Assembly (NCBI GenBank): GCA_009839745.1
Contig: VXPE01000011.1
Coordinates: 15,910-54,807 of the forward strand
Origin: Candidatus Poribacteria bacterium
GTDB taxonomy: Bacteria > Poribacteria > WGA-4E > WGA-3G
Direction of reading: 5' to 3'
DNA length: 38,898 bases
Made by a program: the position numbers and the translations under genes. The notes under the pieces were generated by a model, which had not been told where the DNA came from, did no database searches, and saw nothing but the letters and a program-made list of their open reading frames with translations. This document shows, piece after piece, positions 1,064 through 2,058 of this stretch (position 1 is the first letter of the stretch; each line of letters starts with the position of its first letter).

Positions 1064-1372
1064 TCAACTACCACTACAGATGTGAATTCCTGTCATCGCA
1101 CAGAACACGCACATAGGGTTGACTTCAGAAAGATCTTGCAGCCCTTCTTCTATTTCATCTGCGATGTCTGATGCGGTATCTGTGGCCCAATCCCAAACAT
1201 CCGCTATTGTATCTGGTGTGCTTGGGTCTTGGATAGTTGACTCAATTACACCTTGGACTCTTGGGTCGTGGAGAAGGCGAATTAGCCCCGGCAATACAGC
1301 ATCCGCCGGTTGCGGAACACAAAAAGAAAGCGTCGCAACAATCAAAAGCCCCGATAATGTTTTCGTAAGCAT
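1064..1372 (-). CDS. small secreted cysteine-containing protein, unknown function
   Basis: The N-terminus is a clear Sec signal peptide: a basic start, a hydrophobic core (LSGLLIVATLSFCV) and a cleavage site after PADA, leaving a mature protein of about 75 residues. It is acidic in the middle (DIADEIEEGLQDLSE) and ends in a cysteine cluster (NPMCVFCAMTGIHICSGS) containing CxxC. A GTG start at 1381 is possible, but the ATG at 1372 sits 5-6 nt after GAAAGGTGAG, an obvious ribosome-binding site, so I choose 1372. That site is buried in a 10-bp hairpin (see the leader at 1377-1468). No family is recognised. The CxxC tail could bind metal or form disulfides. An ECF sigma factor and a broken secreted CxxC protein lie upstream on the same strand. 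Confidence 0.65.
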   Translation of the reverse strand: MLTKTLSGLLIVATLSFCVPQPADAVLPGLIRLLHDPRVQGVIESTIQDPSTPDTIADVWDWATDTASDIADEIEEGLQDLSEVNPMCVFCAMTGIHICSGS

Positions 1373-1376
1373 TTTT

Positions 1377-1468
1377 CTCACCTTTCGGCTGGTGTAAGTG
1401 AAAGGTGAGGAGGTCAGGTTACCAGCCTGTTAAATAAAAGACCTCCTCATAATTACGGCTGGTAACCT
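1377..1468 (-). promoter_or_regulatory. self-complementary 5' leader with mutually exclusive helices over the ribosome-binding site
   Basis: Three perfect inverted repeats lie in the leader of the 1064-1372 gene. The ribosome-binding site segment 1377-1386 pairs with 1400-1409 (10 bp). Segment 1406-1415 pairs with 1440-1449 (10 bp). Segment 1416-1427 pairs with 1457-1468 (12 bp). The second and third are interleaved, a pseudoknot-like order, although the zero-length linker at 1415/1416 may force them to alternate. The first and second share 1406-1409, so forming 1406-1415/1440-1449 frees the ribosome-binding site. Segment 1387-1393 (GGCTGGT) can also pair with 1421-1427. In the mRNA, 1449-1440 reads TGAGGAGGTC (Shine-Dalgarno-like) and 1415-1406 reads GACCTCCTCA (anti-Shine-Dalgarno-like). 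A six-codon mini-ORF starts at 1450. This is the layout expected of a riboswitch or translational attenuator. No known class is recognised. Confidence 0.6.
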
Positions 1469-1682
1469 TATTTCTATACAACTTACTTGGAGGGATCGCG
1501 CCAACAGGTCGAGAAAGAAAAAGGTCAGGCGATCCTCATATTTTCGCTATTGGGTGCTAACCTAAAAGACACACAAACTGCGTTCAGTATGTGCTACAAT
1601 TAAGTTAGCACTGTCCATACTCTGATTATGGTAGTGCCGTGCTGATGGGCGCTGGTATCACCTACGATACGCCTCAAAAACT

Positions 1683-2058
1683 TTAGAGGTTGCCAATTAC
1701 AAAATACATTCTATAACCAGAGTCCGAACTATTCATATTACCGTAATCTTCACCACAATAAGAGCAGGTACTCACTCCTATCAAAAAGGAACCAGATACT
1801 GAATCAGGGGTGAGAAATGTATAAATGTTATTCAGGATGCTGCTGCCCTACGGGACCACATCCGTAATTAAACTACCTATCCATTCACCCAAAGAGGGTG
1901 AACGAACTCTACCACAATGAGAACACCCTGGAGAAAGTTGACCACTCCCATCACAATCTGGACAGTCGTCATCATTATCGTGTGCATACACGCTTGTGTG
2001 AAAAAACAACAAGCGAAAGTAGCATTAAGCATGCCATTAGCTGTAAATGTTTACGCAT
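1683..2058 (-). pseudogene. broken secreted CxxC zinc-finger-like protein
   Basis: Reading from ATG 2058, the frame encodes a signal-peptide core (MACLMLLSLVVF) and then runs into a six-base A run (2001-2006 on the plus strand). Dropping one base restores a continuous protein: ...SLVVFHTSVYA, then HDNDDDCPDCDGSGQ, then LSPGCSHCGRVR, giving a textbook cleavage site followed by two CxxC pairs spaced like a DnaJ-type zinc finger. An in-frame TAG at 1848-1850 ends this part after LITDVVP. The same frame then stays open for 54 codons with another CSYCGED motif, to TAA at 1683-1685. Two disruptions suggest a decaying gene; a sequencing error in the homopolymer or programmed slippage is possible. 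It lies between the ECF sigma factor and the small secreted cysteine protein. Confidence 0.55.

Follow-up and report, generated by a model that had tools for sequence, protein, structure and literature searches.

A conserved leader predicted to hide the Shine-Dalgarno sequence of a Poribacteria secreted-protein gene, with arms for an alternative fold

The gene of a 102-aa secreted protein from Candidatus Poribacteria is preceded by a 92-nt element which very probably acts at the RNA level, in a conserved manner, to sequester the Shine-Dalgarno (SD) sequence. Our modelling leans, with less assurance, towards a regulated change of fold that would use the arms B, B' and A'' of this element. The latter would come last in a structured mRNA leader of roughly 330 nt and control the translation of the secreted protein. 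All positions (Table 1) refer to the window, i.e. the whole stretch of 38,898 nt that was analysed (GCA_009839745.1, contig VXPE01000011.1, 15,910-54,807).

Table 1. Features of the leader and of the gene that it precedes, in window positions
Feature	Position	Strand	Description
Regulated gene	1064..1372	minus	102-aa secreted protein; ORF read from the sequence
Arm C' (GAAAGGTGAG)	1377..1386	minus	Holds the SD; partner of C in the OFF fold; identical in 3/3 species, unpaired probability near 0
Arm A'' (ACCAGCC)	1387..1393	minus	Third outer-arm copy, complementary to A', inside the loop of the SD hairpin
Arm C (CTCACCTTTC)	1400..1409	minus	Strand hiding the SD
Arm B' (GACCTCCTCA)	1406..1415	minus	Anti-SD-like; shares 4 nt with C
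Arm A' (GGCTGGTAACCT)	1416..1427	minus	Partner of A (OFF) or of A'' (proposed ON)
Arm B (TGAGGAGGTC)	1440..1449	minus	SD-like, in the A:A' loop; partner of B' in the proposed ON fold
Arm A (AGGTTACCAGCC)	1457..1468	minus	Partner of A'
Hairpin E (GGATCGCC...GGCGCGATCC)	1493..1536	minus	Between D and the switch; read directly
Element D	1553..1696	minus	144-nt structured leader RNA with stems P1, P2, P3 and P5

Repeats, homologous leaders and covariation

The regulated gene runs on the minus strand from an ATG at 1372-1370 to a stop at 1064, the repeats being located in its leader. A preliminary description of this DNA listed three perfect inverted repeats, of 10 bp (1377-1386 with 1400-1409), 10 bp (1406-1415 with 1440-1449) and 12 bp (1416-1427 with 1457-1468), and these coordinates proved to be exact, as did the overlap of the first two repeats at 1406-1409 and the interleaving of the second with the third. 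Also present as described are the SD (AAAGGTGAG, within 1386-1377), the SD-like B arm (GAGGAGGT) and the anti-SD-like B' and C arms. This list of helices was nevertheless incomplete, overlooking both the third copy of the outer arm, A'', and the upstream element D. Read 5' to 3' on the mRNA, the arms follow one another in the order A, B, A', B', C, A'' and C', the last one holding the SD, before the AUG. Among the perfect repeats of at least 9 bp, no other cluster of this kind occurs across the 38.9-kb window, and the repeats lie far beyond chance, since none of 3000 dinucleotide shuffles of 1370-1470 yielded even two repeats of at least 10 bp. Folding of 1350-1480 gives a z-score of -4.4 for the mRNA (minus) strand, compared to -5.3 for the plus strand.

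Within the 38 genomes of the genus, the leader was found in two others, designated G013 (88% over 160 nt, E 3e-50) and G034 (78% over 84 nt, E 2e-9), and the leaders compared are thus those of three Poribacteria species from one genus; a decayed arm remnant that follows the ECF sigma gene in G008 (L022) was left out. A covariance model run on 73 genomes of the order gave no clear copy of the switch beyond these three, while a DNA pattern search returned the two Poribacteria loci already identified and unrelated single matches in GTDB contigs, and none in viral contigs. The 102-aa protein itself carries a signal peptide (MLTKTLSGLLIVATLSFCVPQPADA, judged by eye) and ends in CVFCAMTGIHIC, with a CxxC...C motif at its C-terminus. 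It matched none of the Pfam, NCBIfam and PADLOC families, and relatives sought in 84,980 species genomes were not found; within the genus, its only clear ortholog is that of G013 (59% identical), where a degenerate paralog is also present (G013:C386). The occurrence of the repeats upstream of the orthologous gene, which had been set as a check, is therefore verified in G013. In G034, the leader heads a different putative secreted Cys-rich protein, missed by the protein search and unalignable with the 102-aa protein. Since the G013 leader is 88% identical compared to 59% for the protein, and since the G034 protein is a different one, the leader appears to be kept while the protein turns over; judged from these sequences, the 92-nt element is narrow in distribution but better kept than its protein.

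The second check, compensatory changes in homologues, also turned out positive, with four such pairs in A:A' and three in A':A'', although these counts rest on essentially one divergence (the window and G013 against G034), only three sequences being available. Between the window and G034, the four A:A' pairs changed from U-A to C-G, A-U to G-C, C-G to U-A and G-C to A-U, with one uncompensated mismatch in G034, and the four altered A columns all stand opposite altered A' columns (P about 0.01 when position alone is considered). In the same line, A'' in G034 is altered together with A and A', so that A':A'' is kept there at six of seven pairs with one mismatch; over the three species, three of its seven pairs are altered on both sides, one is a G-U, and 95% of the cells are paired. 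Pairing amounts to 97% for A:A' and 100% for B:B', and sliding the partner by 1-3 columns lowers it from 98% to 23-47%. All 10 pairs of B:B' are kept in the three species, and in two of them an A has become a G, which yields a G-U on the mRNA strand. C:C' is 100% paired and invariant, and is for that reason neither supported nor opposed by covariation.

These changes also bear on whether the repeats could act as DNA, either as operator sites or as the hairpin ends of a mobile or repeated element. Operators often consist of multiple copies of one motif, as is the case for A, A' and A'', and the cassette contexts differ among the three genomes. Nevertheless, the changes preserve pairing across the copies, the three one-sided ones (two in B, one in A'') all give G-U on the mRNA strand only, the element lies between a structured leader RNA and the SD, and a search for a second copy in its own genome found it to be unique, making a DNA-level role highly improbable.

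The pairing of B by itself further accounts for most of the conservation of an ATG overlapping it, which lies just behind A in the three species. This ATG opens the six-codon mini-ORF previously pointed out from 1450, which does exist (ATG AGG AGG TCT TTT ATT TAA); a role for it is not supported, neither its length nor its sequence being conserved. For leader-peptide control, a ribosome on the mini-ORF would have to block A or B and thereby set the fold, but the frames of 6, 24 and 9 codons have no peptide in common and no SD of their own, in contrast to the conserved short ORF with its own SD of a leader-peptide attenuator, and such control is hardly credible.

Computed folds and the proposed change of fold

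The minimum-energy fold of the three leaders combines A:A' and C:C', with an SD unpaired probability of about 0, and these helices persist when the whole leader is folded. By comparison, the best fold forced to hold B:B' is worse by 12.9 (window), 15.9 (G013) and 10.8 (G034) kcal/mol. In simulated transcript growth of the window and G013 leaders, A:A' and C:C' arise early and in order. By default, A would join A' once the latter is made, leaving C free for C', and the SD within C' would be hidden (OFF). An RNA thermometer, whose SD helix would have to melt near the growth temperature, is disfavoured on energy grounds, C:C' being a perfect 10-bp helix with a stacking of about -17 to -18 kcal/mol.

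A second and incompatible set of partners can be drawn on the same mRNA, namely B with B' and A' with A''. Taken together, these two helices have the classical H-type order, with loops of 12, 5 and 12 nt, and exclude A:A' and C:C'. The ON form would accordingly be an H-type pseudoknot made of a 10-bp stem, a 12-nt loop, a 7-bp stem and connectors of 5 and 12 nt, in which the SD would be single-stranded. When A is deleted in silico, B:B' forms in all three leaders, and the mean SD accessibility becomes 0.23 in the window, 0.42 in G013 and 0.14 in G034; part of the SD hairpin stays in the A-less folds of the window and G034, and 7 bp of C:C' are left in the window with B:B' alone. The stability of the pseudoknot was estimated from summed stacking terms minus a literature penalty of ~10 kcal/mol, giving for the window a stacking of about -38 kcal/mol, near -28 after penalty, compared to a less favourable -25.7 for the A-less RNA with B:B' and a partial SD hairpin. 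In G034, where A':A'' has its mismatch, the pseudoknot is not clearly favoured by energy, and it is therefore a hypothesis backed by covariation rather than by energy. The combination of A:A' with B:B', i.e. a pseudoknot with a zero-length connector, was judged sterically implausible. A might be removed from A', and translation thereby turned on, by a ligand, a protein or a small RNA, by cleavage behind A, or by a signal coming from element D upstream.

The dominance of the OFF fold in every computed ensemble, its early and ordered appearance in simulated growth and the fact that no trigger was found would also agree with a static conserved leader, in which A:A' and C:C' keep translation low or protect the mRNA, and B, B' and A'' are by-products of sequence reuse. 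Such a leader is however rather unlikely, as a static fold needs neither the full B:B' complementarity in three species nor an A'' that tracks A'. The perfect partner B' would equally be without purpose in a tisB-like standby mechanism, in which the SD stays hidden while ribosomes land on the SD-like B, or on another open upstream stretch, and slide in as C:C' breathes. B is indeed a near-perfect SD displayed in the A:A' loop while the real one is sequestered, but the computed folds partly engage it in a small inner hairpin and the distance is ~55 nt only, so that standby is quite improbable.

SD sequestration with a regulated change of fold is thus the preferred reading. From the cis-acting RNA switch initially proposed, the cis-acting RNA is upheld by the homologous leaders in two species, the compensatory pairs and the intact SD-hiding helix, whereas the switch is only plausible, the OFF fold being ~11-16 kcal/mol better than the B:B' folds. 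If the model is true, the three-copy arm would represent a neat natural design, A'-A closing the SD and A'-A'' opening it.

Element D and the surrounding locus

A DNA search with 1540-1690 gave matches in 29 of the 38 genomes of the genus, these being copies of D. Among 23 copies of D, 14 pairs are altered on both sides, a score reached by 0 of 500 shuffles, and when the set is widened to 33 copies, among them a second subtype, its 3' hairpin is seen to alternate between GCTAACC/GGTTAGC and GCTGGTT/AACCAGC (four neighbouring pairs, 10-11 sequences). The D covariance model R2, against which the window copy scores 124 bits (this copy was in the training alignment), recorded 313 matches (summed from the table) at E <=0.001 in 55 of the 73 genomes of the order, namely in 38/38 of the genus, 17/21 other family members and 0/14 genomes of three other families. 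The weakest of these matches may be false, since the E-values are rough, training-set copies match by construction and antisense cross-matches reach ~41 bits. Rfam, searched with D copies at gathering and permissive thresholds, returned nothing, and a paper search on Poribacteria and riboswitches yielded nothing beyond a genome paper on another phylum. On comparative grounds, D is a previously uncatalogued structured leader RNA family, absent from Rfam.

D usually lies a short way 5' of a gene for a putative secreted or membrane protein: most of the 39 copies examined by a heuristic scan are followed, mostly within 13-120 nt, by a start codon that has an SD and opens a hydrophobic N-terminus, and in the window the start of the signal-peptide protein gene lies 180 nt downstream. 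As a sigma-70-like TTGACA-N17-TATAAT ends just before D in many copies, these mRNAs most likely begin with D; in the window copy, the only such sequence at this position is a weak TATAGA. The TATA-like TGTATAGAA immediately before A is a less likely start site, D leaders elsewhere having their promoters just 5' of D.

The second subtype (L160, L161, L162, L168, L171) has the hairpin GCTGGTTTC/GAAACCAGC, and in several genomes a copy of this kind stands before a DNA methyltransferase instead. Besides, the 3' strand of P1 (CTGCCA) can alternatively pair with a downstream TATGACAG to form a stem P4 (alignment A5, columns 70-77 with 85-93), in which an A-U to U-A swap is seen in two copies; D itself may be two-state.

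At the three switch loci, and only there, the 92-nt element stands between D and the start codon, D being followed by a GGATYGC element, which is a clear hairpin in the window, then by the switch and the gene. At many other D loci, GGATTGC...GCAATCC occupies the place of hairpin E, and at other D loci, where no switch separates the leader from the SD, the latter is partly open, its unpaired probability being 0.02-0.68 in 27 other D leaders compared to about 0 at the three switch loci. For this reason, the switch looks like an insertion into an existing leader type, bringing full SD occlusion. Pairing sought between D or E and the switch arms reached 9-10 nt at most and is not conserved. The D hairpin has GCTAAC and the switch arm CCAGCC in the window (1457-1468, 1553-1610) and in G013, and GCTGG and GCTAACC, respectively, in G034 (L089 3384-3533); the two helices look as if they had swapped sequences, possibly so as not to pair with each other. 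It is tempting, but speculative and on the whole doubtful, to consider D as a new riboswitch-like leader class, sensing a ligand or a protein, for the small secretome of a Poribacteria family, and coupled at three loci to a pseudoknot-ON switch that would reuse one arm three times (A, A', A'').

Other features of the locus can be mentioned. An ECF sigma factor gene (2160-2738, minus) has close orthologs in ~11 species (L060-L070), often followed by a small putative secreted protein that differs per species, as a fast-changing partner. In the window, it is directly followed by a second secreted Cys-rich ORF (1683-2058, minus) with a signal peptide and CPDCDGSGQLSPGCSHC, interrupted by a stop and by a frame shift close to a run of T. 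A small membrane protein of ~130 aa (261-653, minus), whose gene in several species lies behind or beside that of the secreted protein (L101-L107), weakly resembles AgrB (E 0.29 in Pfam, 0.038 in NCBIfam) and is possibly a transporter or an immunity partner. Positions 1-165 contain two copies, ~110 bp apart, of a ~55-bp direct repeat (CATATTGCTGCACAAGGACATCTAAGCAGCG...). In G032 (L102, about 28-1450), a long array of repeat units, translated as FNRTSMESK / SNQYGIET, adjoins the membrane-protein gene and looks like a CRISPR array.

Relation to known leaders

In line with the preliminary description, which recognised no known riboswitch class, no Rfam family of any kind matched in the whole window, the best weak hits reaching 14-18 bits for thresholds of 40-73. 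In translational riboswitches such as SAM-II and preQ1-II, alternative helices hide or free the SD, a feature which the present leader would share, whereas the latter has no Rfam match at a meaningful score and no ligand pocket was recognised in its 92 nt. Its likeness to a conserved structured leader domain with covariation is one of structure only (14 pairs in D, four and three in the switch). Several partners compete for one arm in hok/sok-type metastable mRNAs too, but here, where the 5' leader only was examined, neither an antisense gene nor 3'-end pairing is known.

Poribacteria are uncultured bacteria known largely from sponges, and the leader offers a testable handle on the control of their exported proteins, with a conserved RNA that outlives the protein it would control. 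D is a candidate new regulatory RNA class, any input of which would be open to in vitro screening, with no need for a culture.

The closest parallels are the two-state leaders of rpsO and tisB. In E. coli and mycobacteria, the rpsO leader is repressed when folded as a pseudoknot, which S15 stabilises (PMC8470358). The arms and loop lengths described here fit two stem-loops mutually exclusive with an H-type pseudoknot, the latter being predicted and energetically unfavourable in G034; the logic would however be reversed, with repressed stem-loops and an open pseudoknot, and the gene is not rpsO but that of a secreted protein without family match or known binding protein. The tisB +42 mRNA of E. 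coli has a sequestered RBS, an important upstream single-stranded region, a pseudoknot in its leader and a small membrane-directed product (PMC7708055), features which the present case would share. Here, no processing site, antisense RNA or toxin gene was identified, and the proposed pseudoknot would be a direct competitor of the helices that hide the SD. The leader is like those of rpsO and tisB in outline and a member of neither, its novelty being that a translational leader of the two-state type, a kind already known and whose switching we infer here, is attached to the new RNA family D.
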